From: Limnohabitans sp. WS1
GTDB taxonomy: Bacteria; Pseudomonadota; Gammaproteobacteria; Burkholderiales; Burkholderiaceae_C
Length of the DNA: 64,000 nucleotides
Assembly: GCF_003063265.1 (NCBI RefSeq)
Contig: NZ_NERU01000023.1
Span: 1 to 64,000, forward strand
Direction: 5' to 3'
The position numbers and the translations under genes were made by a program. Each line of letters starts with the position of its first letter. The first letter of the stretch is position 1. The notes below the pieces were generated by a model. That model searched no databases. It was not told the DNA's origin and saw only the letters and a program-made list of their open reading frames with translations. Positions 50,401-64,000 of the stretch are shown here, one piece after another.

Positions 50401-51209
50401 GATTTTTTGACCGTCAGCTTGTGGCCATTCCAACCGTGTTTTTTGGGGGCCAGTTGCGCCTCGATCCAGCCCAGCAAGTTGTCGGCTTGGACATCCCAAG
50501 CGGTTTTGAGGGCTTGCAGCTGCGCCTCGCGATCGGCCAAGGCAGCCGCGTAGACCTGCGCCAGTGTGCCTGGCGAGGTTTCGGGCAGGGGCACGGCCAT
50601 CAGGGCACGCATATCGGCTTCCAGCGCGGGCACGTCGCGCCAAATGGTTTGCACCTGCGCCACTTGCTCGGGGAGCATGGGGTAGAGCTGTTGCCGCCAA
50701 TAGTCCTGCACCGCCTCCAGGCGCAAGGCGGCCTCGTCGCCGACCAGGTTTTCTTCAAACAGGTTGCCGCTGTCAAAGGCGTGCTCGCGCAACATGCGCT
50801 GGCACCAAGCGTCGATGGTGTAGACGGACGCATCGTCCATGGCTTGGGCCGCCAGCGCCAAACGGTAGGCCGCTTGCTCGCGCACACGCCCTTCGGGGTA
50901 GTCGGCCATCAGGCGCATCAAAAATGCATCTTCACTGCGGGCCAGGCCCCGAAAAACCTGCGCAGCTTCGGTCAGGCGGGCGCGAATGCGGTCTGACAAC
51001 TCCCGCGTTGCGGCGCGTGTGAAGGTCATGACCAGCACGTCTTGCGGCAGCATGGGGCGCACCGGCGCGGTGTCCGCCGTGCCATGGCCCAGCACCAGGC
51101 GCACATAAAGCGCAGCAATCGTCCAGGTTTTGCCGGTCCCGGCGCTGGCCTCGATCAGGTGGCTGCCGCGCAGCGGGAAGCCGGGGGCGTCCAGGGCATG
51201 GGCACTCAT
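47403..51209 (-). CDS. recB: Exodeoxyribonuclease V beta subunit RecB
   Basis: This is the 1268-residue 3'-5' helicase plus nuclease of RecBCD. Walker A is ASAGTGKTWTI, the motif II region has VALIDEFQDTSPLQF, motif III has GDPKQSIYGFRGADI, and TIHASKGLEYPVV is motif V. The C-terminal nuclease domain carries GFADLVFEHAGRYWVLDYKS, with the catalytic Asp and Lys. The start overlaps the recC stop by four bases. Confidence 0.96.
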   Translation of the reverse strand: MSAHALDAPGFPLRGSHLIEASAGTGKTWTIAALYVRLVLGHGTADTAPVRPMLPQDVLVMTFTRAATRELSDRIRARLTEAAQVFRGLARSEDAFLMRLMADYPEGRVREQAAYRLALAAQAMDDASVYTIDAWCQRMLREHAFDSGNLFEENLVGDEAALRLEAVQDYWRQQLYPMLPEQVAQVQTIWRDVPALEADMRALMAVPLPETSPGTLAQVYAAALADREAQLQALKTAWDVQADNLLGWIEAQLAPKKHGWNGHKLTVKKSAEWLGVLKAWSQGPDDGQALEAAMKAGWDRFTPEGLMACRKPGEDPVTLPPESQAYAQLQTALKALPDPQQQARLHARSHVLQRMNELKRRSGLFGFADMLERLDVALADPESGERLAQRLREQFPVALIDEFQDTSPLQFRIFDRIYRTADNRQDTALLLIGDPKQSIYGFRGADIHSYLAARRATEGRHHVLGTNFRSTQAMVDAVNRWFEIPADAFGYRTALEDPLPFQSVKAHGRAEVLHVSGGAVPAMTLVHDATLRSQRDARVHLSALCAEQIVAWLGDPNARFVHPQQGDAPLKPKDIAVLVRTGVEAAAVRDALRLRGVASVYLSDRDSVFASDEAQDLCLWLRGVAEPQDMRRVRAALGTRTVGLSLAELHALATQDDLLDQRAEQMRELHQIWQTQGVLAMLRQSLHRLQLAGRWRGQSDGERRLTNVLHLAELLQTASSQLDGEQSLIRWLLQQIDEALDGSAGESEEKTVRLESDEDQVKVITIHASKGLEYPVVCLPFAHSHREVTAGKASVMQVGQAGGDRHWTLDFDRTDAQAADQDRLREDLRLWYVALTRARHALWVGWSPVKRGNGKKCVNHDSASGHLLAGGDEPDENGWWPKLQALQTHAQGQPLSVHFTRATGEASLTRWQRTEQPVALREALVCNARIDKTWGIASFSRLTRGLSSQALSSAAWVSAPPVASGAVSLDMATPRRADDESDKEEVATAWPESLPIELQTALSLDDLAQSALSAQTAPWHSFARGPSAGNFLHDQMEWLAAEGFVLEPGTPTAERLAKRCERSGYTAQADGVVQWLSRLVAQPLGSPGRGPHVSLNALQTVLPEMEFWLPAERLHAREIDTLCQQHLLPGVARPQLPDAQLHGMLMGFADLVFEHAGRYWVLDYKSNHLGAQDANYSAEALDQAMAEHRYEVQAALYMLALHRLLRSRLGSAYDPAQHLGGAVYLFMRGLDGPVGGCCCLPAPTALMDGLDAMLGGVVHAPEPSGVSL

Positions 51210-54200
51210 GACAGTTCCTCTTGTTCATCTTGTGCAGAGTCTTCGGGCAATGCCTCGACCACGATGTGCGCGGCCCAGTCGCGCAAAGGGGCATAAACGG
51301 CTTGGGCGATTCGCTCAAAATGGCCGCTGTCCAGCACATCGCTGAGCGTGGGGTAGGTGCGGGCCAGCGCCGGGTCTTTGTTGCGCTCGGCACGCACATG
51401 GCTGCTGCCTTCGTACAGGTCGTGCAAAGCGTTCAGGTTGTCCGGGTCTTTGAGCCACTGCAAAGCCAGCACCGGGGGCACAGGCAGGGGCCAGCGCATG
51501 CCCTCGGTCCAAGTGTCCAGCAAGACCTGCAACTGGGCGCGGGCCGCTTGGGGCTCTGGAGGCGGCACACGCAGCACCGCATTGGCCCCCACCACCACAC
51601 ACACCAAGGGCTGCCCCATGGCGGCACTGGCCAGCGAGATCAGCCAGACGTCGATCAATTTTGCAGGCAAGGCCTTGGGCGGTTTGCCCTTCAAGTCAGC
51701 CAAAGCATTGGCCCGCAGGCTGAGCAGCATCCAAGCATGGCCGTGACGGCTCAAAACGCCGCTCAGGGCGTCTTGCAGATGCACTTGAGGGTGCGCCAGA
51801 TCGATCAACACCCGAGGCGCTGGCTGGGGGTAATCCTGGCGCTCTTGCAAGGCGGCGCCCAGCATCGCCTCGAGCTTGAGGCTGAGTTTGCTGGCTTCGA
51901 GTTCGCCCACGCCTGCCAAGGGCATCGCCCCAGCCTGGCGCAAACGCTGCACCACGCGCTGGGTGTAACTGGGCATGTTGTGCGGGGTCACATCGGTGGG
52001 CACATGCTGCAGTTCATGGTCCAGCAGCTGGTACAGGTCCAGCCCCCCCAGTCCAAACAGCTCTTCGCCGGGCAGTTCACTGCGCTCAACGTCCAGGTTC
52101 ACCTGCAAGCGTTCACGAAAAAATGCCCCGACCGGTTTTTGCAAAAACCGCCCCAATTGGCCCAGGGTGATGACCGGTGTGCCCGTGGCCGACTGCAAGG
52201 GCTCGAGCTGGATGGGGTCATTCTGGGGCTTGCTCGGCTGAGCGTTCAAGGGGTCGTGCAAGTTACCGTTCGAGTTACCGTGCAAGGCGGCAGCGTCATC
52301 ACCAGGGCGGGCGTCGGTTTGCGCCGCTCGCCACTCCAGGGCAAAGGTCTGCAACGTGCTGTCTTGTTCAAAATACTGGCGGCTAAAGGGCTGCAGCGGG
52401 TGCACCGTGGTCAGGCGTTTGACCGTGCCCTCGCCCCACAGCGCATCGATCTCATCACGCAGCTGCGACACCAGCACCGACGGCGGTTGTTCGCTGTTGT
52501 TGCGCACACTGCGGCCGCTCCAGCTCACGTACAGGGTGCGCCGTGCAGACAACAGGGCTTCGAGCATCAGCTGGCGGTCGTCGTCCCGGCGCGAACGGTC
52601 ACCCGGGCGGCTCAGGCCGGGCAGGCCCAGCAAGTCAAAGTCGGCACGCGGGCTGCGGCGCGGGTAGTCGGCGTCGTTCATGCCCAGCAAACACACCCGC
52701 GCAAAAGGAATGGCCCGCATGGGCATGAGCGTGCAAAAGGTCACACCTCCCGCCCGAAAACGCTGCTCCAGCTTGGGCACCTTGAGCGCCTCCATCCAGG
52801 CTGCGCGGGCCACCGTCAGTGGCACAGCCTGCGCAAAGTCAGCCTGATCGGCGGAGCGGGTCCAGTCGTTCAGGGCCTGATCCAGAGCCGACAGTGCGTT
52901 GCGGTCGGTGTCGTCTTGCGCCTTGAACAAGGCGGCCAACAGGGCGCGACCGCGCTGGGCCCATTGCAGGGGCGTGGCCTCACTGGCGCATTGCTGCCAC
53001 CAGTCCATCAAGGCTTGCAACAGGTGCGCCAAAGCCCCGGCCAATTCGGCGTCCAGCCCCCCGACCTCGGCATAAGGGTCAATGCCTGCAAGGTGCGGGG
53101 CACTTTGCGGTGAAAGGCCCGGCGCATCGGGCACCGGGTCGGCCCCGCAGGCGTAACCCATCAGCATGCGTTGCACACCAAACAAGGCCGAGTTGTCATC
53201 AGCGCAAGTGTCCAGGCCCAAACCCGCCCGGTGCGGTGCCGACAAGCCCCATCGAATGCCCGAGCCCACCATCCAGCGCGTGAGCGTGGGCAACTGCTCG
53301 GGCTTGAGGCCAAAGCGGGCGGCCAAAGCGGGCACTTCGAGCAGCGCCACCCACTCGCTCATGCGGCTGCGTTGCTGGGGCAAGGCCAACAACCACTCCA
53401 CCGCATGGATCAAGGGGCTGGTGGCCTGCGCCCCCAAGTCGGCAATGTCATAGGGAATAAAACGCGCATCACCCCGCTTGTACTGGCCAAACACGGCGCG
53501 AATGGCCGGGGCCATGACTTCGATGTCGGGCACCATCACCACCACGTCGCGCGGCGAAACCTCGGGTTGAGCGTGAAACCACAGCAAAAGTTGGTCATGC
53601 AGCACCTCGAGTTCACGCACCGGGCTGTGCGCCACTTTGAAAACCAGCGAGTCATCGTGCGCGTCCAGCGCGGCCTCGACCGGCTCCTGGCTCGACTTCA
53701 AATCGCGGATGCGGTTTTGCAGTTGCGTGAGCAAACGGCGGCCGTCGGCCCCCGGCGCATCGTCAAACAGGTCCAGCCGAACACCCGGATGGCGCTCTTG
53801 CGCCGCTTGCAGGTCGTCAAAGGCGTCCAGCTGCCGAATGAAGTCGCGCCCCTGTCGCCCCCAAGCGGCCAGCAAGGTCGGCGCGTGCAAATGCATCTGC
53901 TCAAAATCCACGGTCGACAGGTTTTCTTTCTTGTAGGCATGACGTCTGCGCTCGGCCCGCAGCGCATCGCGCCCGTCCATGATGTCGCCCCAGTGGTGCT
54001 GGCAAGGGTTGGGCACGGCCAGCAGGACTTGGCTGTGCGCCGACAAAGCGCCCAGCATGTCCAGCAACTGGCTGGGCATGTGGCTCATGCCAAAGACCGA
54101 CACGCGCCGCGCCACCGGACTGGCCAGTGCTTGGCCCGACTGCAAAAGTGCCAGCGCACGCAGATGCAACGCAGGCCGAGTGGCTTGTTTTTCTGCATCG

Positions 54201-54823
54201 GTCAAAGTGGCCAGCACACGCCGCCACAGCTCGGCCTGCCACCGCTGGTCCTCGGGCAAGAGGCCCGCCTTGTCATCGGGGCGCACGGGCTGGCCCGACT
54301 GGCGACGCAACACATCGCGCCCCTCGGCCCAGTCTTGCAACCAATCGGGGCGGTAAATTTGGTACTGGTCAAACAAGTCGGCCAAACGACTGGCCAATTG
54401 CAAGAGGCGTTCAGGCTCAGGCTCGGGTCGCTTGCCACGCAAATAACCGGCCACGGGCTGAAACACCGGATCGCCCACACAGGCTGGCAACAAAGCCATC
54501 AAACGCCACGTCATGGGCAATTTGTCCAGCGGTGAGTCGGGCGGCACGTTGCTCGCACCCAGCACCTGGCGGTAGGTGCGCCACAAAAACCGCGAGGGCA
54601 GCTCCACCCGGGTGGCCGCGCAGACCCCCCCGCCAGGTCCGCCCTGCCCGGCCAACGCCATCTTGATCCACTCGGCCATGCCGTTGCTTTGCACCAGCAC
54701 CACCTCCTGCTCCAGCGCAGCCAAAGGCTGGCGCATCAACCAAGCCGACAAGGTTTCGGCCAACACCTCAGAGCGGTGGCTGTGCAGGGCCAAAAAGCCG
54801 GGGACGATCGAAGAAGTGGTCAT
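51206..54823 (-). CDS. recC: Exodeoxyribonuclease V gamma subunit RecC
   Basis: This 1205-residue inactive helicase-like subunit recognises Chi sites. Family segments include LALHSHRSEVLAETLSAWL, VLVQSNGMAEWIKMAL and VSVFGMSHMPSQLLDML near the N terminus. The C-terminal part includes LPAKLIDVWLISLA. ATG 54823 gives an N terminus that matches the family. An in-frame ATG at 54865 is a possible alternative. It heads the recCBD operon. The clustering is typical, but the Chi sequence of this organism is unknown. Confidence 0.94.
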   Translation of the reverse strand: MTTSSIVPGFLALHSHRSEVLAETLSAWLMRQPLAALEQEVVLVQSNGMAEWIKMALAGQGGPGGGVCAATRVELPSRFLWRTYRQVLGASNVPPDSPLDKLPMTWRLMALLPACVGDPVFQPVAGYLRGKRPEPEPERLLQLASRLADLFDQYQIYRPDWLQDWAEGRDVLRRQSGQPVRPDDKAGLLPEDQRWQAELWRRVLATLTDAEKQATRPALHLRALALLQSGQALASPVARRVSVFGMSHMPSQLLDMLGALSAHSQVLLAVPNPCQHHWGDIMDGRDALRAERRRHAYKKENLSTVDFEQMHLHAPTLLAAWGRQGRDFIRQLDAFDDLQAAQERHPGVRLDLFDDAPGADGRRLLTQLQNRIRDLKSSQEPVEAALDAHDDSLVFKVAHSPVRELEVLHDQLLLWFHAQPEVSPRDVVVMVPDIEVMAPAIRAVFGQYKRGDARFIPYDIADLGAQATSPLIHAVEWLLALPQQRSRMSEWVALLEVPALAARFGLKPEQLPTLTRWMVGSGIRWGLSAPHRAGLGLDTCADDNSALFGVQRMLMGYACGADPVPDAPGLSPQSAPHLAGIDPYAEVGGLDAELAGALAHLLQALMDWWQQCASEATPLQWAQRGRALLAALFKAQDDTDRNALSALDQALNDWTRSADQADFAQAVPLTVARAAWMEALKVPKLEQRFRAGGVTFCTLMPMRAIPFARVCLLGMNDADYPRRSPRADFDLLGLPGLSRPGDRSRRDDDRQLMLEALLSARRTLYVSWSGRSVRNNSEQPPSVLVSQLRDEIDALWGEGTVKRLTTVHPLQPFSRQYFEQDSTLQTFALEWRAAQTDARPGDDAAALHGNSNGNLHDPLNAQPSKPQNDPIQLEPLQSATGTPVITLGQLGRFLQKPVGAFFRERLQVNLDVERSELPGEELFGLGGLDLYQLLDHELQHVPTDVTPHNMPSYTQRVVQRLRQAGAMPLAGVGELEASKLSLKLEAMLGAALQERQDYPQPAPRVLIDLAHPQVHLQDALSGVLSRHGHAWMLLSLRANALADLKGKPPKALPAKLIDVWLISLASAAMGQPLVCVVVGANAVLRVPPPEPQAARAQLQVLLDTWTEGMRWPLPVPPVLALQWLKDPDNLNALHDLYEGSSHVRAERNKDPALARTYPTLSDVLDSGHFERIAQAVYAPLRDWAAHIVVEALPEDSAQDEQEELS

Positions 54824-55151
54824 GCGCGTCAATTGAGAGACAAACACCGAGTCCAGGCGGGCCATCCATCGGCCCCGCCTTGGCGAACGGAAGGCTACAA
54901 GAATAGCCGCAAAACAATGGCCCATGGCCGCACGCAGTGCGAGACGCAAGCCCTCAACTGCCTATTTTTAAGGCACACCCCGCCAAGCCAACAGGCATGC
55001 GCCCTCGCAGGCTTGTTCCATCACTTATCCACAGCTTTGAGCCCGGTGTTTGGGGACAGCCATCGCGGCAAAAAACAAGCCTGGGGGTGATGACAAAAGC
55101 TCTAATCAAACACTTATACTTGCACATATGTTTGGATTCTGGAGCTTGACC
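54824..55151. other. Gap between recC and the toxin-antitoxin pair
   Basis: These 328 bases contain no convincing gene. They should hold the recCBD promoter (minus) and the antitoxin promoter (plus). A single consensus DnaA box TTATCCACA lies at 55025-55033, too isolated to suggest an origin. The AT-richer right end carries the antitoxin control region. Confidence 0.5.
55090..55134 (+). promoter_or_regulatory. Candidate promoter/operator of the vapBC pair
   Basis: A -10-like TATACT (55115-55120) is preceded at 18-19 bases by a TGACA-containing -35-like element (55090-55096). An inverted repeat CAAACA (55107-55112)/TGTTTG (55129-55134) spans the -10. Autoregulating antitoxins bind such repeats over their own promoter. 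The site ends 17 bases before the antitoxin ATG. Confidence 0.5.
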
Positions 55152-55382
55152 ATGTCACAAATCACGCTGTATCTGGACGATGCCACACAGGCTTTGGTGG
55201 ATGAAGCAGCCAAGGCCAACGGTGTCTCCAAAAGTCGCTGGGTGGCGGACATCATTCGCACTTATGCTGCACACGATTGGCCACAAGACTGTTTGGCGCT
55301 GGCGGGCCGTTTTTCGGACTTTCCTTTGCGGGGTGATACCGCCAAAGAACAGCCCACCGATGTCCCACGCCAGTCTTTTTAA
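55152..55382 (+). CDS. Antitoxin with ribbon-helix-helix fold (VapB-like)
   Basis: This 76-residue protein has N-terminal MSQITLYLDDATQALVDEAA and KANGVSKSRWVADIIRTY, the beta-strand plus two helices of a CopG/RHH DNA-binding domain. An acidic/proline C-terminal tail would neutralise the toxin. GGAGC precedes the ATG at 55152. The toxin gene begins nine bases later, so the pair is co-translated. Confidence 0.85.
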   Translation: MSQITLYLDDATQALVDEAAKANGVSKSRWVADIIRTYAAHDWPQDCLALAGRFSDFPLRGDTAKEQPTDVPRQSF

Positions 55383-55391
55383 TCAGCGGCC

Positions 55392-55796
55392 ATGTTGATC
55401 CTGGACAGCAACACCATCAGCTATTACTTCAGGGGTGACCCGCAGGTCGTGCCGCGCATGCAAGCGCTCAGGCCGGGCACTCTGGGCGTTCCGGCCGTTG
55501 TGGAATACGAGTTACGCTGTGGTTTGTTGCGCTTGCCTCAAGAGGCGGCCACACCCAGGTTGGCCGCTTTGACGCAATTTCTTCGCCCCTTGCAAATGCT
55601 GCCTTTCGATCACGAATGCGCTGCACATGCGGCCAAACTTCGCGTCGCACTGGAAGCCGCAGGCACCCCCATCGGTCCGCACGACACCCTGATTGCGGCC
55701 ACTGCATTGCGCCACCAAGCCACCTTGATCACGCGCCATATGCGTGAATTTTCACGGGTGCCTGGCCTGCAATGGATCAACTGGCATGAGGATTAG
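55392..55796 (+). CDS. vapC: PIN-domain toxin (VapC type ribonuclease)
   Basis: The 134-residue PIN domain contains the acidic active-site residues: Asp in LILDSNTISYYF, Glu in VVEYELRCGL and Asp in GPHDTLIAATAL, plus a distal acidic end. VapC toxins cleave tRNA or rRNA and are held inactive by the upstream antitoxin. The length and gene order fit a type II pair. Confidence 0.9.
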   Translation: MLILDSNTISYYFRGDPQVVPRMQALRPGTLGVPAVVEYELRCGLLRLPQEAATPRLAALTQFLRPLQMLPFDHECAAHAAKLRVALEAAGTPIGPHDTLIAATALRHQATLITRHMREFSRVPGLQWINWHED

Positions 55797-55814
55797 CGAT
55801 CAATCAGGCGCTGC

Positions 55815-55890
55815 GTGGGGGTGCCCCAGCCGCCCGGGCGATGGGAGGAGGTCTGCGAGGCTTTATCGCGGCGAGGGCACCGCTCCTACA
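55815..55890 (-). repeat. REP-like palindromic element, inverted copy
   Basis: On the minus strand this reads TGTAGGAGCGGTGCCCTCGC, CGCGATAAAG, CCTCGCAGACCTCCTCCCATCG, then a CGCCCGGGCGG hairpin and GCACCCCCAC. It has the same architecture and same left-hairpin subtype as the 43.6 kb copy but the opposite orientation. It lies between vapC and the convergent HupE-like gene. Confidence 0.75.
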
Positions 55891-55922
55891 AAAAGGCTTT
55901 GAGCCAACATCACCCGGCTGGC

Positions 55923-57104
55923 TCAATTGAGCCAGCCCAAGCGCTCAAACGTCCAAAACAAACCCAACACCACGATGGCCGAGGAGCCCCCAAACACCAG
56001 CACCCAGCGGTAAAACCAGGTGCGCCGCAAACCCCAGGCCAAGGGCAAAAACGCCCCCACAATGGCCAGTTGCCCCAACTCGACCCCCAAGTTAAAGCCC
56101 CCCAACGCGGCCAGCAAGGCGCTGGCGGGCAAGCCCAAGTCCAGCAACACACTGGCAAAGCCAAAGCCGTGCACCAGGCCAAACACAAACGCCAGACGCC
56201 AGCGCTTGAGGGCACTGAAACCCAACAGGTTGTTCAGTGCCGCCAGCACCACCGACAAGGCAATGGCAGGCTCCACCCAATCAGCAGGCGGCGTGAGCAC
56301 GTCCGTGATGGTCAGCCCCAGCGTGATGGAGTGCGCCACCGTGAAGGCCGTGACCACCGCCAACACATCCATGACCACGGGCCTTGCTTGCGGGGCGGCA
56401 GGCCAATGCGTCACCCTTTGGCGTGTGGCTTGCAAAGGGGCCAGCAGCAAGAGGCTGAGCAAAAAAACAATGTGATCGATGCCGATCCAGATGTGCCAAA
56501 CGCCCTCCAGGATGTAACGGCCAAAGACTTTCCAAGGGCGGCTGTCTGCCAGGCTGACCTGCGCCTCTGGCCTGTCCGGGCTGAGCAAAACGCTGCTTTG
56601 CACACCCGCCAGGTCCACCTTGAGCAAGCCTCGGTGCAAGCTGTCACGGTCAAACATCAAGCCATAGCGCAGCCCCAAACTGGCGTTGGCCGCGTCGGCT
56701 GCCGAAGACAGGCCCGGGCATTGCACCGCCCACAGGGCACTGAGGTATGTGCCATCGGCTCGCTCACTCGCTTGCAAGTCGGCGGTGCCCAAGGTGCAGG
56801 CTTGGCCACTGGCCGTCAGACCAAGGCCTTGGGCCAACCAAAGCTGCAGCTCAGCGCTTCGGGCCTGGGTTTCAGCCCAAGTGACCTGGCCGTCACGGTC
56901 TGCGTCCAGATCAAAAATCAGGTCCACATCGCGCCAATGAACATCGGCTCGCAAGCTCAGCTCAGAACCCGATGCGCTGAGCGTCAAAAAACTGTTGCTG
57001 CTGGAGTGCGCCTGCACCCCTTGTGCACACAACAGTCCCACCCAAACCATGGCAAACGCCACAAGCCCATGGCGAAGCCCACCCCGTTGAGACAAGATCA
57101 TCAT
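55923..57104 (-). CDS. HupE/UreJ-type membrane protein with EF-hand-like loop
   Basis: This 393-residue protein has a signal peptide ending near VQAHSSS, a soluble N-terminal part and about six C-terminal helices. The helix region GVWHIWIGIDHIVFLLSLLL, TAFTVAHSITLGLTI and FGLVHGFGFAS carries the conserved histidines of HupE/UreJ metal-transport-like proteins. The soluble part contains DLDADRDGQVTWAE, a good EF-hand calcium loop. It overlaps the upstream TPR gene by four bases. No hydrogenase or urease genes are nearby. Confidence 0.82.
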   Translation of the reverse strand: MMILSQRGGLRHGLVAFAMVWVGLLCAQGVQAHSSSNSFLTLSASGSELSLRADVHWRDVDLIFDLDADRDGQVTWAETQARSAELQLWLAQGLGLTASGQACTLGTADLQASERADGTYLSALWAVQCPGLSSAADAANASLGLRYGLMFDRDSLHRGLLKVDLAGVQSSVLLSPDRPEAQVSLADSRPWKVFGRYILEGVWHIWIGIDHIVFLLSLLLLAPLQATRQRVTHWPAAPQARPVVMDVLAVVTAFTVAHSITLGLTITDVLTPPADWVEPAIALSVVLAALNNLLGFSALKRWRLAFVFGLVHGFGFASVLLDLGLPASALLAALGGFNLGVELGQLAIVGAFLPLAWGLRRTWFYRWVLVFGGSSAIVVLGLFWTFERLGWLN

Positions 57105-58369
57105 GGTCGGCCCCCTGTCCAGCTGGGATGTGACTGGAGCTGAGCCAAGAGGGGCTTCAATTGGGGGTCGGTGTAGCCGGTTTTTTGGGCCCAATTGAGC
57201 ACCGGTTCCGCCGCGCGGACTTGGCCCTGAGCCAGCGCAGCCTGAACAAACAGCAGCGCATCGGGGGGTTCTTTTTGCAGCTGCCAATTTCGAATCGACA
57301 AGGCCAGCCCCGCTTTCACGTCGCGGCCGTAACTGATTTGGTAAATCAAAGCAGGCCGCTCGATCAGTGACTCTTGCCGCTGCCCTTGTGATTGCTGCCG
57401 CGCCTCGAACTGTTGGGCCAAACGGGGTTCATCGGCATCTTTCAGCCCCCGGCTGGCCAGCAGGGCTTGCATCAGCAGGGCGTCGGTCATGATGGCCGTG
57501 CCACTTTGCGCTTGGCCGGGGGTTGCCATGGCGATGGTTTTGGCTTGTTTGAACTGGCCTTGCTGATTGAGCAGTTCGGCCAAAGACAGGCGAATCAGAT
57601 GCGACTGTGGACTGACTTTCAGGCGCTGCCCCCACACCTCCAGGGCACGGGCAGGCTGCCCGGCCACGCGGTGCGCCTCACCCCTGTGAAAACTCAACCA
57701 GTCTTGCGACGAGTCGTCTTGAAAGCGGGCCCATCGAATCGCGCGGCTCAGCATGTCCACAGCGTCCAAGGGCTGACCACTGCGGTAGCGCAAAACCGCG
57801 CGGTAGGCCAAGGCTTCCTCGTCGCCAAAACGCCGGGCGATCTCGTCGGCATCTTGCTCGGCGGCTCGCATGTCGGCCAACAACAGATGCAAGGCAAAGC
57901 GCCAAGACCACAATTCAGGGCGACCGGGCTCCAGGGCAATGGCCCGCTCAATGTCCTGCAACCCCTCATGGAAATCATGAAAGCCCTGCTTGACCAAACC
58001 CCTTAAAAAATAAGCCTCGGCAGGCAAATTTTGCGCATGCCACCAAGGGCTCAAAGCCGCCTTGGCCGAGCCATACCAACGCAAATCACCCTCGGTCAGG
58101 CCCAATGTAAAAACGGCCCGGGCATAGGCCAGCGATGCGCTCAAATCTTGAGGTTGGGCACGCCAGGCCTTGTCCAAAGTGCGCCAAGCGGCCTGGCGGT
58201 CACTGCCAGCATGCACCGACGTGGGCAACACCACATGCGTCTGTGTCGGATTGAAACGCTCTTGCGCCGAGGCCAGCGACACCCCCCAACACAGCACGCA
58301 CAAGGCCACAGTTGCACGGGTTGGCAGGGGAATGGCACGCACTGAAGTGGGCCGACGACTTTTGTCCAT
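57101..58369 (-). CDS. Secreted TPR-repeat protein, unknown function
   Basis: The 422-residue protein has a signal peptide (TRATVALCVLCWGVSLASAQ) followed by helical tetratricopeptide-like repeats, for example AYFLRGLVKQGFHDFHEGLQ and AIALEPGRPELW, with ALEVWGQRLKVSPQSHLIRL later. This points to a periplasmic scaffold. The ATG at 58369 is chosen over an in-frame TTG. The stop overlaps the HupE-like start, so the two are probably translated together and work as a pair. Confidence 0.75.
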   Translation of the reverse strand: MDKSRRPTSVRAIPLPTRATVALCVLCWGVSLASAQERFNPTQTHVVLPTSVHAGSDRQAAWRTLDKAWRAQPQDLSASLAYARAVFTLGLTEGDLRWYGSAKAALSPWWHAQNLPAEAYFLRGLVKQGFHDFHEGLQDIERAIALEPGRPELWSWRFALHLLLADMRAAEQDADEIARRFGDEEALAYRAVLRYRSGQPLDAVDMLSRAIRWARFQDDSSQDWLSFHRGEAHRVAGQPARALEVWGQRLKVSPQSHLIRLSLAELLNQQGQFKQAKTIAMATPGQAQSGTAIMTDALLMQALLASRGLKDADEPRLAQQFEARQQSQGQRQESLIERPALIYQISYGRDVKAGLALSIRNWQLQKEPPDALLFVQAALAQGQVRAAEPVLNWAQKTGYTDPQLKPLLAQLQSHPSWTGGRP

Positions 58370-58474
58370 GTTCAACGTGTGCCTTTGATGATCGCTACGA
58401 TGTTAGTGTGTGTTGGCTTACCCTGATGCGCAATTCTGGCCTTTTTTCCATTCTCTTTGCTCGAAGGTATTTTT

Positions 58475-58627
58475 ATGAAATTCGTGATGACCGCTTTTGT
58501 TTCCGCTTTCATGTTGGTGTCCATGCCTGCCTTCGCTGGCAGCCACGGTGGCGGCAAAATGGACGACAAAAAAGTCGACTGCTCCAAAAAAGAAAACGAA
58601 ACCAACCCTGCTTGCGTGAAGAAATAA
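58475..58627 (+). CDS. Small secreted peptide, unknown function
   Basis: A 50-residue gene. The product has a clear signal peptide (MKFVMTAFVSAFMLVSMPAF ending in AG) and a hydrophilic mature part of about 28 residues, GSHGGGKMDDKKVDCSKKEN then ETNPACVKK, with two cysteines ten residues apart. GAAGGT precedes the ATG, and a perfect terminator follows 20 bases after the stop, so it is a free-standing gene. I do not recognise the family. Confidence 0.75.
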   Translation: MKFVMTAFVSAFMLVSMPAFAGSHGGGKMDDKKVDCSKKENETNPACVKK

Positions 58628-58647
58628 ATCCCTTCGCCCTCTGCACC

Positions 58648-58671
58648 AACCCCTCTTGAGGGGTTTTTTTT
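58648..58671 (+). terminator. Rho-independent terminator of the small secreted peptide gene
   Basis: AACCCCT pairs with AGGGGTT around a CTTG loop and runs into eight T residues. It lies 20 bases after the small peptide stop. Confidence 0.88.
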
Positions 58672-58746
58672 CGGGTTCATTGCACCCGGAGCCTGGTCAT
58701 TGGTTCAAGACATGACATGGCGTCAACTCATCGCAACAAAAAAAGA

Positions 58747-58843
58747 TGTCATCTTTGATTTACAAGCGATAACACCTAGGCACTGAAGGCTTTCAAGCCT
58801 TGCAACCCTTGTTTCAAAAGGTTATTGTCAACTCTTATTTACG
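58747..58843 (+). promoter_or_regulatory. PpsR/CrtJ-like TGT-N12-ACA motifs upstream of the AerR-like gene
   Basis: TGT-N12-ACA, the exact consensus of the photosynthesis repressor PpsR/CrtJ, occurs at 58747-58764. A near copy, TGT-N12-ACG, occurs at 58826-58843, ending ten bases before the ATG. Between them is a perfect AAGGCTT-TC-AAGCCTT hairpin (58786-58801). Short motifs can occur by chance, so two sites in one promoter region of an AerR/PpaA-like gene is suggestive, not proof. Confidence 0.45.
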
Positions 58844-58852
58844 GATCACTTG

Positions 58853-59770
58853 ATGTACCTCAATTCAGCGGGCCTTCACTTCAACCCGCTCAGGGTCTAC
58901 GCCAACACCTTGTTGACCTGGATGTCCTCATGGGGTCAGGGTCACAACCCATCAGCCATGCAGCAGTCACGCAACACCGATTTTTCGAACGGTCAGGACG
59001 AGTGCAAAAAATCGCTGACCCAGGTGATCGAAAGCCAGATCATCCCGCGCCTGGTGCAAGCCCACAGGGTGGAAACCCGTGCGCAGACCCGTGAGCTGCC
59101 TGGCGGCCCAACCATTTCCATGAAACAAGTGGCCACCTTTGTGGCGCTGAGCAAATCCAGCCAAACCTCTGAAACCACGCAGTTCATCGACCAACTGCTG
59201 CACGACGGTGTGACCACCGACTGCATTTTTCTGGAGCTGATCGCGCCTGCCGCCCGTCAACTCGGCCAAATGTGGGAACAAGACCTGTGCGATTTCACAG
59301 AAGTGACCTGCGGCTTGGTGCGCATGCACGAAATCACCCACCGCCTGGGTTTTGAATACCAAAACGGCCCCCAACTCGGCGGCGATGTGCAACGCATCAT
59401 GTTGGCCTCAGCCCCCGGATCGCAGCACTTTTTGGGCATGACCATCGTTTCTGATTTCTTTCGCAAAGCAGGCTGGGATGTGGTCATCGAAATTTCGCTC
59501 AGCGAAAAAGAACTGGTCCACGCCGTCAGCAACGAGTGGTTTGACGTGATCGGCATTTCTTGCGCCACCGAAGCACAGCTCAAGGCCCTGCCCGGCCTGA
59601 TCCATGCACTCAAAGGCGCTTCGGGCAACCCTGAGCCCGGCGTCTTGTTGGGTGGCCCCATTTTTACCGTGCAAGAGCACGATGCCCGAAGCCTGGGTGC
59701 CGACGGCATTTGCATCGACGTCAAAGAGGCGGTCGCCTTGGCCGCTTCTTTCCGCACGCGCCCGGACTGA
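58853..59770 (+). CDS. AerR/PpaA-like cobalamin- or heme-binding regulator
   Basis: The protein has 305 residues. After a variable N-terminal part comes IIPRLVQAHR (63-72), a segment shared with AerR/PpaA. A B12-binding-2-type helical region follows (IFLELIAPAARQLGQMWEQD, 125-144), then a Rossmann-like B12-binding domain starting near residue 181. Where cobalamin binders have DxHxxG, it reads GSQHFLG (189-195). The His and Gly are kept but Asp is Gln, as in SCHIC-type heme sensors. Such proteins modulate the PpsR/CrtJ repressor by light or redox. No DNA-binding domain is visible. ATG 58853 is preferred to the adjacent TTG. Confidence 0.72.
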   Translation: MYLNSAGLHFNPLRVYANTLLTWMSSWGQGHNPSAMQQSRNTDFSNGQDECKKSLTQVIESQIIPRLVQAHRVETRAQTRELPGGPTISMKQVATFVALSKSSQTSETTQFIDQLLHDGVTTDCIFLELIAPAARQLGQMWEQDLCDFTEVTCGLVRMHEITHRLGFEYQNGPQLGGDVQRIMLASAPGSQHFLGMTIVSDFFRKAGWDVVIEISLSEKELVHAVSNEWFDVIGISCATEAQLKALPGLIHALKGASGNPEPGVLLGGPIFTVQEHDARSLGADGICIDVKEAVALAASFRTRPD

Positions 59771-59956
59771 GCCCCCGCTGGGCTTGCCCTTGAGGGGCAA
59801 AGACCATTCACACCTTGGCGCTGCACTGCGAGCGGGTCTGCGTTAAAAGCTTGGCTTAGCTCCCATGAAAGCGCTTTTGTGAACAACGCCCCCCTTGGCT
59901 CCGCAACCACCGAATTGCCCCACCCATCGCCGCCCCATGCGCCAACAGGCCCCGAC

Positions 59957-60328
59957 ATGCCCACCGCGTGTGGCACGCTGACGGTGATGTACGACGGCTC
60001 TTGCCCTTTGTGCCAACGCGAAATCGGTCTTTACCAATCGCTCACCCCTTTGCAGCCCGTGGCATGGCTGGACGTGAGCGCGGCGAATTTGACACCCGCG
60101 ACACGCCAGCAACTCATGGCCCGCTTTCACGTTCAACAAAGCGACGGCCAACTGCTCAGCGGCGCTGCAGCCTTTGTGGCCCTGTGGCTGAACATGCCCG
60201 GCTGGCGCTGGCTGGGTCGGCTGGGCCGTTTACCCGGTGTGACACCGGTGTTGGAAGTGCTTTACCGTGGCTTTTTGCCGCTTCGCCCCACGCTTCAAAA
60301 GTGGGTCAAAAAACACACCGCGCCTTGA
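59957..60328 (+). CDS. DCC-family thiol-disulfide protein (DUF393)
   Basis: A small thiol protein of 123 residues from this start. The family motif LTVMYDGSCPLCQREIGLY, with the DGxCxxC signature, lies near the N terminus. The rest (AAFVALWLNMPGWRWLGRLG, VLYRGFLPLRPTL) fits DUF393. Members are predicted thiol oxidoreductases. An in-frame GTG at 59879 would add 26 proline-rich residues; neither start has a strong ribosome site. It follows the AerR-like gene by about 190 bases. Confidence 0.82.
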   Translation: MPTACGTLTVMYDGSCPLCQREIGLYQSLTPLQPVAWLDVSAANLTPATRQQLMARFHVQQSDGQLLSGAAAFVALWLNMPGWRWLGRLGRLPGVTPVLEVLYRGFLPLRPTLQKWVKKHTAP

Positions 60329-60342
60329 GCACTGCACCCTTG

Positions 60343-60717
60343 ATGTCCAGCACACCCTTTGCCATGGAACCTGAGGTCGCCCCTGCAATCGACCCCGCCC
60401 GCGTGTCCGCCATCGTGGCCATGGCTTGGCAAGACAACACGCCCTTTGAAGCCATTGCCTTGCAATTTGAGCTGAGCGAAACCCAGGTGATTGCATTGAT
60501 GCGCGAGCACCTCAAACCCCGATCGTTCAAAGTCTGGCGCATGCGGGTGCGTGGCCGCACGGCCAAGCATTCGGCCTTGCACCAAGCCAAACACCACAGC
60601 AGTCTCCCGCTGGTGTGCGGCCCCAACAGCTTGGCTGCGCTGGCGCTTTTGCACCCGGATGACAGCGAAGACTATCCCCTGCCCCACGCCAACATCACGC
60701 GCCAGTCTTTGCGCTGA
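60343..60717 (+). CDS. TIGR03643 family protein
   Basis: The 124-residue protein has core segments RVSAIVAMAWQDNTPFEAIA, LQFELSETQVIALMREHLKP and RSFKVWRMRVRGRTAKH. These match TIGR03643, a short family with an HTH-like helical start. Members often lie near cryptochrome/photolyase-related genes; this is from memory. It starts 14 bases after the DCC gene and probably shares its transcript. The function is unknown. Confidence 0.8.
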   Translation: MSSTPFAMEPEVAPAIDPARVSAIVAMAWQDNTPFEAIALQFELSETQVIALMREHLKPRSFKVWRMRVRGRTAKHSALHQAKHHSSLPLVCGPNSLAALALLHPDDSEDYPLPHANITRQSLR

Positions 60718-60723
60718 AGCGGC

Positions 60724-61857
60724 TCAAGCCCTTTTTTGAAGCCCAGAGGCGTTGGTCGGCTGCTGCGCATCGGCGGGGTTGTCGTGCGGCAAAAAGTCGT
60801 GCGGCTCAAAGGCCAGGCGCTCGCCGTGCCCCAAGGCGACCGAAGCCTCAAAACCTGAAGGCTCAGGCAGCATGGACTGCAATACGGTCAACACGTTTTG
60901 CAAGCGCGGATCGTGGGCTTGCGCATCATCGGTGGTGTCGTTGATGCAAAAAAACGCCAGCTCACCAAACTCGGCCTGCAAAGCCTGCAACTGCGCGTTT
61001 TGATCGGCTTCGCCCGTTGACACGTAGCGGTGGCGGTAGGGCCGGATACTGGCCAGGCCATGCGCCAAGGCCCAGCGCAACACAAAATCCGACACGATGG
61101 TGGGCTTGTCCCAGCTGCGAAACACGGTCGAACGCACCGCAGCAAACAACTCGGGGGCCGTCTGCTCCAGCTCCATCAAAATCGACTTGAGCATGGGCCG
61201 GGGCGAGTGCGCAAATGTGCGAAACGTGCTTTGGTACAGCGGGTCCTGCTCGCGCAAGGCCGCTGCCCCCGAGCGGGCCTTGTCGCTGAGCCACTGAATC
61301 GACAAACGGCACGCGTTTTCAAGCGAAGTGGCGTCCATGCGCATGGCCTCATCGGTCACCAGCGGCTCATCTGACCAGGTGACGTGAAAACCTACATCGG
61401 TGAACCAATCACTCACCTGCACGGGCGCACCAAAAAATACATCGTCGTTGAAGTAAAAGTACCGCTCGGACAGCCCGGGAATGTGGTGAATCCATGACTC
61501 GATGTGGCCCGAGTCAAAGGTGGGCAAGGACGATTCGGGCATCAAATCGCGGTGATCGACCAGCGTCAACCGGTCTGAAGCTTGCAGCCAATCGGGGGCC
61601 TGTGCGTCGGTCACGATGTAAACATGGCCGTGATCGGGAAAAAACTTCTCCAAAGCCCGCAGGCTGTAGCGCAGCTCGTGGTTGTCGCGAAAGCGGCCCT
61701 CCACATTGCTGTAACGGGCCATGGCCGCGCTGCTGTCAGAAGGCAGCTGCTGCAAAGCTGCTTGGCGCTTGGCTCGCCAAGCCGAATCGTTGCCGTCCAC
61801 CCACAAATAAACAATGTCGATGGCGGCTTGGGGCATGGGGGCGTTGGTTTTTTTCAA
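60724..61857 (-). CDS. Stealth-family hexose-1-phosphate phosphotransferase
   Basis: The protein has 377 residues. It contains the Stealth CR1 segment IDIVYLWVDGNDSAW, the CR2 segment RFRDNHELRYSLRALEKFFP with YFYFNDDVFFG, and later CR3/CR4-like regions. Bacterial members move hexose-1-phosphate units onto capsules and surface glycans. No other capsule or glycosyltransferase gene is in the window, so it is an orphan. It converges with the TIGR03643 gene and is divergent from the 3-hydroxybenzoate gene. Confidence 0.85.
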   Translation of the reverse strand: MKKTNAPMPQAAIDIVYLWVDGNDSAWRAKRQAALQQLPSDSSAAMARYSNVEGRFRDNHELRYSLRALEKFFPDHGHVYIVTDAQAPDWLQASDRLTLVDHRDLMPESSLPTFDSGHIESWIHHIPGLSERYFYFNDDVFFGAPVQVSDWFTDVGFHVTWSDEPLVTDEAMRMDATSLENACRLSIQWLSDKARSGAAALREQDPLYQSTFRTFAHSPRPMLKSILMELEQTAPELFAAVRSTVFRSWDKPTIVSDFVLRWALAHGLASIRPYRHRYVSTGEADQNAQLQALQAEFGELAFFCINDTTDDAQAHDPRLQNVLTVLQSMLPEPSGFEASVALGHGERLAFEPHDFLPHDNPADAQQPTNASGLQKRA

Positions 61858-61948
61858 GGCACGCAGTCTAGCAGTGGTGAATGAAACGGGTTTTCAATAA
61901 CCGCTCTGAGCTCAGGGCCACTGGTCAAAACAAAGCACCAAAAAATTA

Positions 61949-61962
61949 ATAAGCATGCTTAT
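61949..61962. promoter_or_regulatory. Perfect 14-base palindrome before the 3-hydroxybenzoate gene
   Basis: ATAAGCATGCTTAT is a perfect palindrome 34 bases before the hydroxylase ATG, in the only AT-rich stretch of the gap. Its size and position fit an operator for a MarR- or GntR-type repressor of the gentisate pathway. No such regulator gene is in the window, so it may be encoded past the right edge or elsewhere. Confidence 0.55.
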
Positions 61963-61996
61963 AATTTGCCGTCCACATTCTTTCTATTGGAGCGTC

Positions 61997-63214
61997 ATGA
62001 GCAGTGTTTCCACACATCTTCCCGTCCTTGTTGCTGGTGGTGGCATTGGCGGCCTGGCAGCCGCCTTGGCTTTGGTGCGCCAAGGCTTTGCCGTCACCGT
62101 GCTCGAACAAGCCCCCGAAATCGGCGAAATCGGCGCGGGCATCCAAATTGGACCGAATGGGTTTCATGCGTTTGACGCTTTGGGCGTCGGCGACAAGGCC
62201 CGTGGCCGCGCCGTTTACACCGACTTCATGGTGATGCACGACGCGCTCGACGAGTACCAAGTGGGCAAGATCCCCACCGACGAAAAATTCCGCGAACGTT
62301 TTGGCAACCCCTATGCCGTGATCCACCGTGCCGATGTGCACTTGTCCTTGCTCGAAGCAGCGCAAGAAACCGGGCAAGTGCAATTTCACACCAGCACCCG
62401 CGTGGAGCGCATCGAGCAGAACGAGAGCAGTGTGACCGTGTGGGACCAAAACGGCAAAGCCTTCCAGGGCTGTGCCCTGATTGGGGCCGATGGCGTCAAG
62501 TCGGTGGTACGTGAGCAATTTGTGGGCGACCCGGCCCGTGTCACGGGCCATGTGGTCTACCGCGCCGTGGTCGACAAAAAAGACTTTCCCGAAGACTTGC
62601 AATGGAACGCCGCCGCCATCTGGGTGGGCCCCAACTGCCATCTGGTGCACTACCCCCTGCGTGGTGGCGAGCAGTACAACGTGGTCGTGACCTTCCACAG
62701 CCGCGAGCAAGAAGAATGGGGCGTCAAAGACGGCAGCAAGGAAGAAGTGCAAAGCTACTTCCAGGGCATTTGCCCCAAAGCCCGCCAGTTGATCGACCTG
62801 CCCAAGACCTGGAAACGCTGGGCCACGGCCGACCGCGAGCCCATTGGCCAATGGACTTATGGCCGCGTGACCCTGCTGGGCGACGCCGCCCACCCCACCA
62901 CCCAGTACATGGCACAAGGCGCCTGCATGGCCATGGAAGACGCCGTCACTTTGGGCGAAGCCTTGCGCACTCACCACAACGATTGGCCAAAAGCTTTGGA
63001 CATGTACCAACGCGCCCGCGTGGCCCGCACTGCCCGCATCGTGCTGTCCAGCCGCGAGATGGGCCGCATCTACCACGCCAAAGGTGTGGAGCGCCTGGTG
63101 CGCAACGACCTGTGGCGCGGCCGCAGCCCCGAGCGCTTTTATGATGCGATGGAGTGGCTGTATGGCTGGAACGTGGGCAACTGCCTTGACGCCGCCATGG
63201 ATCCTGCACGCTGA
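61997..63214 (+). CDS. 3-hydroxybenzoate 6-hydroxylase (FAD-dependent)
   Basis: This is a 405-residue class A flavin hydroxylase. The N-terminal FAD motif GGGIGGLAAALAL is followed by GAGIQIGPNG. The DG motif is in GADGVKSVVREQF, and the C-terminal FAD motif is LLGDAAHPTTQYMAQGACMA. The sequence fits the 3-hydroxybenzoate 6-monooxygenase group (known as MhbM, NagX or XlnD), which makes gentisate. GGAGC precedes the ATG at 61997. It is followed by gentisate 1,2-dioxygenase, supporting this assignment over salicylate 1-hydroxylase. Confidence 0.9.
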   Translation: MSSVSTHLPVLVAGGGIGGLAAALALVRQGFAVTVLEQAPEIGEIGAGIQIGPNGFHAFDALGVGDKARGRAVYTDFMVMHDALDEYQVGKIPTDEKFRERFGNPYAVIHRADVHLSLLEAAQETGQVQFHTSTRVERIEQNESSVTVWDQNGKAFQGCALIGADGVKSVVREQFVGDPARVTGHVVYRAVVDKKDFPEDLQWNAAAIWVGPNCHLVHYPLRGGEQYNVVVTFHSREQEEWGVKDGSKEEVQSYFQGICPKARQLIDLPKTWKRWATADREPIGQWTYGRVTLLGDAAHPTTQYMAQGACMAMEDAVTLGEALRTHHNDWPKALDMYQRARVARTARIVLSSREMGRIYHAKGVERLVRNDLWRGRSPERFYDAMEWLYGWNVGNCLDAAMDPAR

Positions 63215-63243
63215 TGTTTGAATTTTGTACACAGGTATCTCGC

Positions 63244-63315
63244 AGGTCGGTGGCTATAGCCCCGACATTGCGGGCTTCGGCGCAGGCTGCATGTCGGGGC
63301 TAAAGCCACCGACCT
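63244..63315. repeat. Palindromic element of a second family
   Basis: AGGTCGGTGGCTATAGCCCC GACAT (63244-63268) and ATGTCGGGGCTAAAGCCACC GACCT (63291-63315) are 25-base arms that pair with a single mismatch, with a 22-base interior. The sequence is unrelated to the GGAGCGACG repeats, so it is a separate mobile or REP-like family. It lies between the hydroxylase and gentisate dioxygenase genes, and the transcript would fold into a very stable hairpin there. Confidence 0.75.
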
Positions 63316-63366
63316 ACAACTGCCCACACGCGGCGCAACACAACTGAACAGAACGGAGACACATTC

Positions 63367-64000
63367 ATGAACGACCTTGGACGCATCGAAGACTTGCCCG
63401 CAGACTATGTGCAGGACTTGCGCAACGTGAACCTGGTGCCCCTGTGGCCCAGCCTGCGCGGCGTGCTGCCCCCCAAAGTGCCCACGCGCCAGACACAGCC
63501 CACCTGCTGGGCTTACAAAGACATCAAGCCGCTCTTGCTCAAAGCAGGCGAGCTGACCCCGATTGAAAAAGCCGAGCGCCGCGTGCTGGTGCTGGCCAAC
63601 CCCGGCCATGGTCTTGACAAAATGCAGGCCTCGGCCGCCATGTACTTGGGCATGCAATTGCTCATGCCCGGCGAATGGGCCCCCAGCCACCGCCACACAC
63701 CCAACGCGGTGCGCATGGTGGTGGAAGGCGAAGGCGCCTGGACCACGGTGGACGGCGAAAAATGCCCCATGAGCCGGGGCGACTTGATCCTCACACCCAC
63801 AGGCCTGTGGCACGAACATGGCCACGACGGCACAGACCCCGTCATCTGGCTCGATGTGCTGGACCTGCCCCTGGTCTATTACATGGAGGCCAGCTACCAC
63901 ATCAACGGCGACCGCCAGACCGTGGTGCCCGGCCAGGGCGACAAGCAATACGCCCGTGGCGGCGTGGTGCCCTCGCATGTGTTTGAGCGCAGCAAAAAAG
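63367..64000 (+). CDS. gtdA: Gentisate 1,2-dioxygenase (partial, cut by window edge)
   Basis: The first 211 residues are present and the 3' end is missing. The cupin metal site is visible: APSHRHTPNAVRMVVEGEGA carries the two histidines near residues 99-101, and GDLILTPTGLWHEHGHDG follows. The N terminus WPSLRGVLPPKVPTRQTQP is typical of gentisate dioxygenase, which opens the gentisate ring to maleylpyruvate. It lies 152 bases after the 3-hydroxybenzoate hydroxylase gene, separated by a large palindromic element. Confidence 0.92.
   Translation, partial: MNDLGRIEDLPADYVQDLRNVNLVPLWPSLRGVLPPKVPTRQTQPTCWAYKDIKPLLLKAGELTPIEKAERRVLVLANPGHGLDKMQASAAMYLGMQLLMPGEWAPSHRHTPNAVRMVVEGEGAWTTVDGEKCPMSRGDLILTPTGLWHEHGHDGTDPVIWLDVLDLPLVYYMEASYHINGDRQTVVPGQGDKQYARGGVVPSHVFERSKK

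Follow-up and report, generated by a model that had tools for sequence, protein, structure and literature searches.

The window analysed here (the whole 64-kb stretch of DNA) carries a gene for a protein, P0001, that as judged from its sequence is probably a cobalamin-binding member of the AerR/PpaA type, and we consider it likely that this protein is a second co-regulator of photosynthesis, different from the PpaA whose gene adjoins ppsR, which would serve in trans as a B12- and light-dependent partner of PpsR. A first-pass annotation of this DNA had proposed an AerR/PpaA-like protein here, and the proposal was borne out by the length of the product (305 aa), its PF02310 domain and the finding of AerR as the best match among structures. 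The family is of a known kind; for clade A, the branch to which P0001 belongs, the literature searched, within the portions of the papers covered, gave no description, nor did it describe a second AerR clade apart from ppsR. The coordinates of the gene and of the features discussed below are collected in Table 1. The start ATG of the gene is invariant in 20 aligned sequences, the window included.

Table 1. Features of the AerR/PpaA-type gene and its upstream region (window positions).
Feature	Position	Strand	Remarks
Terminator-like hairpin behind the upstream small ORF	58648..58665	+	5 such sites found versus 2.1 expected in shuffles
PpsR-box-like site TGTCATCTTTGATTTACA	58747..58764	+	exact TGT-N12-ACA; 9/10 to TGTCA-N8-TGACA
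Conserved upstream box ACAAGCGATAACACCTAG (also written AGCGATAACACCTA; GATAACACCTAG)	58762..58779	+	RGYGATWACMCCTA in 24/24 A1
TTGCAA, possible -35 of a sigma-70-like promoter	58800..58805	+	CTTGC in 24/24
TATTGT, possible -10	58823..58828	+	17 bases after TTGCAA; TAnnGT in 24/24
Near copy of the PpsR-box-like site, TGTCAACTCTTATTTACG	58826..58843	+	8/10; overlaps the possible -10; right half not conserved
AerR/PpaA-type protein CDS (P0001, 305 aa, clade A1)	58853..59770	+	ATG 58853, stop 59768-59770
Trp141 codon, position of the B12-capping Trp of AerR	59273..59275	+	aligned to AerR; invariant in 30/30 selected proteins
Phe148 codon, position of the second capping residue of AerR	59294..59296	+	invariant in 30/30 selected proteins
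B12-binding (Rossmann) domain, residues 181-293	59393..59731	+	PF02310, 64.5 bits (cut-off 32.1)
His192 codon, position of the lower axial Co ligand (AerR His145)	59426..59428	+	aligned to 7te2; invariant in 30/30 selected proteins

A Pfam search with P0001 (E up to 1) gave PF02310 as the sole match and no DNA-binding domain, and for that reason the protein would be expected to rely on a partner and act in trans. The solved structure that matched it best in sequence was AerR of Rhodobacter capsulatus (E 1.7e-10). An AlphaFold2 model of P0001 (30 relatives) had a mean pLDDT of 70.8, with residues 1-83 below 50 and of low confidence, and a fold search with this model placed AerR (7te2) at rank 1 (E 5.4e-11), ahead of photocobilins, AppA and, at a lower rank, CarH. 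The PF02310 and 7te2 matches indicated that the helical cap and the B12-binding domain of the AerR/PpaA antirepressors are both present in P0001. In AerR, the residues described as capping and holding cobalamin are Trp94, Phe101 and His145 (PMC9144470), and P0001 matches AerR in all three at the B12 site, at an identity of approximately 23% in the fold alignment. A strict pattern for both cofactor motifs was matched by 24/24 A1, 20/23 A2a, 16/20 A2b, 28/31 B and 10/22 C proteins (the groups are defined below), several of the misses retaining the residues in a slightly altered setting.

The PpaA proteins of Cereibacter/Rhodobacter sphaeroides and Dinoroseobacter shibae belong to the same family of B12-binding antirepressors; their genes are described as sitting upstream of ppsR, and in D. 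shibae contact between PpaA and PpsR is described as being promoted by B12 (PMC10890935). The SCHIC domain of AppA, which is also a PpsR antirepressor, has a similar fold, but its His is described as shifted by two positions and as binding heme (PMC9144470), whereas P0001 lacks this shift and its His192 aligns with the His of AerR. The first-pass annotation had raised both cobalamin and heme as cofactors; cobalamin is favoured on the basis of sequence, since the His stands at the cobalamin position and not at the shifted heme position of AppA. The B12-binding light-sensing domain of CarH/LitR proteins is similar in fold to P0001, but the MerR-type DNA-binding domain at their N terminus was not found in P0001, where PF02310 alone was matched. 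The long form of R. capsulatus AerR (LAerR, as against SAerR) resembles the A1 proteins in having an N-terminal extension, approximately 50 residues long, in which a helix is predicted (residues 13-28 of P0001, at low confidence). In the long form, His10 of the extension is described as becoming the upper Co ligand in the light (PMC9144470). All 24 A1 proteins have at least one His among their first 18 residues, whereas its place, unlike that of His10, is not fixed, and the parallel with the LAerR extension is only suggestive.

The window lies on contig C16 of a 4.60-Mb genome in 48 contigs. Its nearest named relatives are records of Comamonadaceae and of Limnohabitans, a genus abundant in fresh water. 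A whole-genome search located the reaction-centre genes pufL/M at C48:8934-10639, ppsR at C48:78166-79485 (TIGR02040, 407.3 bits, cut-off 275.4) and a classical ppaA at C48:77180-77995, directly before ppsR. Contig C48 also holds homologues of bchN, bchF, bchG, bchP, bchO, bchD, bchI, pufC and crtD, the bch, puf and crt names having been assigned from similarity and order. Thus puf, bch and ppsR genes are all present, and the Limnohabitans-like genome of the window is that of a phototroph. The earlier statement that the window holds no photosynthesis gene agrees with the whole-genome puf and ppsR matches falling on C48 alone, the ORF listing itself covering positions 50000-64000; an extension of that statement to the genome as a whole was ruled out by pufL/M and ppsR on C48. 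Since a classical ppaA is already in the genome, the window gene is a second AerR/PpaA-type gene, its product being 28% identical to that of the C48 ppaA over residues 114-294. In contrast to aerR, it does not stand beside ppsR/crtJ (the gene is on C16 and ppsR on C48) and coexists with a separate ppsR-adjacent ppaA; in contrast to the ppaA genes of the species named above, it is additional to such a gene. The missing adjacency lowers the case for its being the PpaA of this genome, not its membership of the AerR/PpaA family. A second PpsR/CrtJ-like match was seen in 28 of the 64 PpsR-positive genomes of the family sample, usually weaker than the first and frequently located on its contig; that in G311 looks like a split gene.

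For the tree, 151 proteins were extracted (L051 and L081 being among the loci absent from this set), 128 were distinct in their last 150 residues, and 124 were used after four shorter than 200 aa had been omitted. In this tree, made by a quick method and with several long branches, clade A accounted for 67 of the 124 rows (the window and 66 others) and formed one side of a branch with support 100, separate from the ppsR-adjacent groups B and C. Within clade A, the detached genes of A1 (24 rows, at least 77% protein identity) and those of A2a (23 rows) each formed one side of a branch, A1 being sister to A2a with a support of only 88; the 20 rows of A2b did not form one side of a branch.

Clade A genes occur together with reaction-centre genes. 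Among 90 genomes of the genus, 61 of which carry reaction-centre genes, pufL/M was present in 50/54 with clade A versus 11/36 without (Fisher p 6e-10), and in a family sample of 397 genomes in 24/25 versus 42/372 (Fisher p 7e-20), tests that ignore shared ancestry. Membership in both tables was set by score and place; G067 and G001 (approximately 41-43% identical and ppsR-adjacent) and the fragment in G442 (a 111-residue match at 43%, in a genome without pufLM) were not counted as clade A. The clade is not essential to phototrophy, since 11 of the 61 genus genomes with pufLM lack it. For A1, pufL/M was found in 24/26 genomes, the exceptions being G440 (74% complete) and G475 (70% complete). 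Clade A genes without detected pufLM came from four genus genomes and one family genome, with listed completeness of 70-80% for G440, G457 and G475, 94% for G389 (approximately 680 contigs) and 99% for G446 (approximately 290 contigs). A1 and A2 were nearly mutually exclusive, both occurring only in G445 among the 54 genus genomes. A class sample of 276 genomes, the window genome aside, yielded four matches at 1e-15 in three genomes (29-37% identical, three of the four adjoining ppsR) and no clade-A gene outside the family. Clade-A genes also appeared in records titled Akkermansia (L023), Methylobacillus (L058) and Chitinophagaceae (L060), which are probably mislabelled or misbinned.

The genetic context of the clade-A genes places some inside and some away from the photosynthesis cluster. 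In G404, assembled as one contig, the order is ppaA-ppsR-bchG-bch2-bchP-tspO-A2-bchO-bchD-bchI; L048 has the same bchP-tspO-A2-bchO order, and the A2a relative comes after ppaA-ppsR in L049, L053, L056 and L057, the cluster gene names of these relatives being partly author-assigned. A2a relatives follow ppsR at 11 loci (L049, L052-L057, L063, L082, L168 and L176), some of which are from the same genome, and A2b relatives are distant from the cluster in G082 and close to it in G316, G362 and G347. A distance of approximately 1.08 Mb separates the A1 gene (1,780,880) from ppaA (696,458) in G403, a genome of 3.37 Mb in one contig. Both G403 and G350 carry A1, and in both another gene occupies the interval between tspO and bchO, an alpha/beta hydrolase by Pfam in G403 and judged alike in G350 solely from a weak bchO-like match. 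In the window genome (G000), the slot separating bchP from bchO (C48:83126-86148) contains a hydrolase-like, weakly bchO-like stretch and no clade-A gene; tspO was not found in this slot and is kept in G403 and G350. The earlier reading of the window gene as a detached control gene of a phototroph thus gains support from the puf, bch and ppsR genes of its genome and from the tie between the clade and phototrophy.

Upstream of the coding sequence, all 24 A1 regions (window included) share RGYGATWACMCCTA, then CTTGC, then TAnnGT in an ungapped block of 75 columns, with the GATAAC of the upstream box at -84 to -87 from the ATG in all 24; most regions also share TTGAAA and GTCAAA. Farther upstream the subgroups differ for the most part in sequence, which makes the block stand out as selected. 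We infer from its composition a promoter of the form TTGCNN-17-TANNGT together with an activator-like box centred approximately 62 bases before the transcription start expected near 58835; a scan for consensus sigma-70 promoters did not report this promoter. Since the spacing of the block is free of gaps, a protein-DNA element is favoured over an RNA one, and a leader RNA element was rejected, Rfam giving no match up to E 1 and no base pair appearing in a consensus fold computed from 20 of the 24 leaders. The hairpin behind the upstream ORF makes transcription of the gene from its own promoter likely. When G000 was searched for the box with up to three mismatches (copies with more would escape), only this copy was found, and the reversed control also gave one; with the 75-column matrix, nothing in C48:1-100000, which holds the photosynthesis genes, scored above 8 bits, versus 79.6 for the window. 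On these two results, membership of the block in a regulon of the photosynthesis cluster was rejected.

The first-pass annotation had singled out an exact TGT-N12-ACA and a near copy 79 bases apart before the gene, and both are present. The bare motif is uninformative, since it occurs 980 times in the 4.60-Mb genome versus 1052 times for a reversed-pattern control (15 times in the window), and as evidence it was rejected. We also used TGTCA-N8-TGACA, which we take to be the palindromic form of the PpsR site, and which was then seen in the cluster of this genome; it is likely the PpsR box of the window genome. Ten exact copies were found in the genome, five of them in C48 and one shortly before hemA. 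This last copy (L186:1512-1529, G000:C6:84811-84828) lies outside the photosynthesis cluster and starts 22 bases before the first possible start of a hemA-like (glutamyl-tRNA reductase) ORF, L186:1534-2823, which was named from reading its translation and is a likely PpsR target. Sites with at least 9/10 positions number 85 in the genome versus 42 for the control, or approximately 0.5% per 250 bases, and TGTCATCTTTGATTTACA is the sole such site in the 64 kb, while TGTCAACTCTTATTTACG is one of 21 window sites with at least 8/10. The first site thus exceeds chance to a modest degree, whereas the near copy does not; as evidence for control by PpsR, the TGT-N12-ACA pair is weak.

In 8/24 A1 genes, the window among them, an exact TGT-N12-ACA was found at approximately -106; there the stricter TGTCA-N8-TGACA form, with both halves kept, was confined to the window and its three closest relatives (the spacer changes in L021 and L039), and the sites were otherwise largely non-conserved among the orthologues. 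With up to one mismatch and within approximately 550 bases, TGTCA-N8-TGACA occurred in A1 8/24, A2a 1/23, A2b 4/20, B 17/31 and C 20/21, the reversed-pattern control giving 0 in every group and the background being approximately 0.05 per 550 bases. A site of at least 9/10 was thus lacking upstream in 16/24 A1, 22/23 A2a and 16/20 A2b genes. The eight A1 cases are not independent, since they form two subgroups of related genes with the box at two different places. The ppaA genes of group C serve as the positive control; at least in the window genome, the region upstream of ppaA is shared with the divergent bchF, which the box there may serve. Three A2b relatives, L074, L079 and L084, have paired strong PpsR-box-like sites upstream of the clade-A gene, 50, 50 and 32 bases apart, boxes that may act on a divergent gene. 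The 'ACA' of the first window site and the 'GTCAA' of the near copy fall inside the other conserved promoter block. A promoter with PpsR sites, as implied by the first-pass annotation, would thus seem to be no general feature of these genes, the exact motif having this place in eight of the 24 A1 genes and the near copy not being conserved.

Taken with the comparisons above, we infer cobalamin binding, a light response and contact with PpsR for P0001. By homology, cobalamin would be held between the helical cap, with Trp141 and Phe148, and the Rossmann domain, with His192 as the lower Co ligand. A B12- and light-dependent state of the protein would then bind PpsR and alter how tightly it holds the TGTCA-N8-TGACA sites in the photosynthesis cluster of C48. 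Transcription of the gene itself probably starts from a sigma-70-like promoter of its own, with the fixed upstream box, perhaps under the control of one dedicated activator, and in the window genome and its three closest relatives PpsR may add feedback through the box-like site at -106.

That feedback could also be given a larger part. If PpsR, bound to the sites at 58747 and 58826, shut the gene down, P0001 would be an autoregulated antirepressor, which is compatible with its being a co-regulator. The 9/10 score of the first site, its two halves kept in the three closest relatives, the paired boxes of three A2b relatives and the TGT-N12-ACG form of the near copy, which is described for a site at pucB of Rubrivivax (PMC4452267), speak for such a loop; but only a minority of A1 genes have the exact motif at its place, the second site lacks conservation, and both sites partly overlap a block conserved for another reason. 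We regard this reading as rather doubtful, and PpsR feedback on the gene in the subgroup of the window and in three A2b relatives as possible, with no rule for the clade. Should both sites be chance occurrences, as the chance density of the bare motif would allow, the gene might be a decaying remnant left after relocation; yet the identity among A1 proteins, the cofactor pattern kept in every one of them and the ungapped promoter block indicate selection and make this highly improbable.

P0001 might instead have been recruited away from PpsR, as a B12- or light-sensing signal protein of some other response that merely persists in phototrophs. The A1 gene is indeed detached from the cluster, its promoter block was not found in C48:1-100000 and its N-terminal extension is kept throughout A1, and it has company of its own: a Stealth gene is nearby in 19/25 A1 loci, a DUF2805 gene in at least 13 (a lower bound, the query being partly out of frame; that for the small upstream ORF was also out of frame, at least in part), and a downstream DCC1-like gene is confined to the window, L020, L021, L039 and L042. 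Against this, the clade occurs almost exclusively together with pufLM, the inspected members of the A2a sister group sit in the photosynthesis cluster, and the cofactor residues are intact, so that recruitment elsewhere appears unlikely.

More broadly, clade A indicates that genomes of phototrophs can hold two B12-type sensors with one ppsR. A tentative generalisation, on which we would not yet rely, is that phototrophic Burkholderiaceae use two B12 antirepressors, a PpaA with a PpsR box before its gene and an AerR clade encoded inside or outside the cluster, the latter having acquired in one Limnohabitans group a gene-specific promoter with RGYGATWACMCCTA and an undescribed single-gene activator. 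The two paralogues would then feed different signals into one repressor, for example light/B12 versus redox/PpsR feedback. Such a division of labour is directly testable, because the A1 gene lies apart from the cluster and can be deleted without touching it.

Around the A1 gene, the DUF2805 and Stealth genes (60358-61857 in the window) stay close in many relatives while the upstream genes change, and no functional link between the A1 gene and these two neighbours was found. Just upstream of the window gene, at 58475-58627, lies a secreted-looking ORF of 50 residues without a Pfam match; of the other A1 upstream regions, those of L020, L021 and L039 alone contain its DNA.
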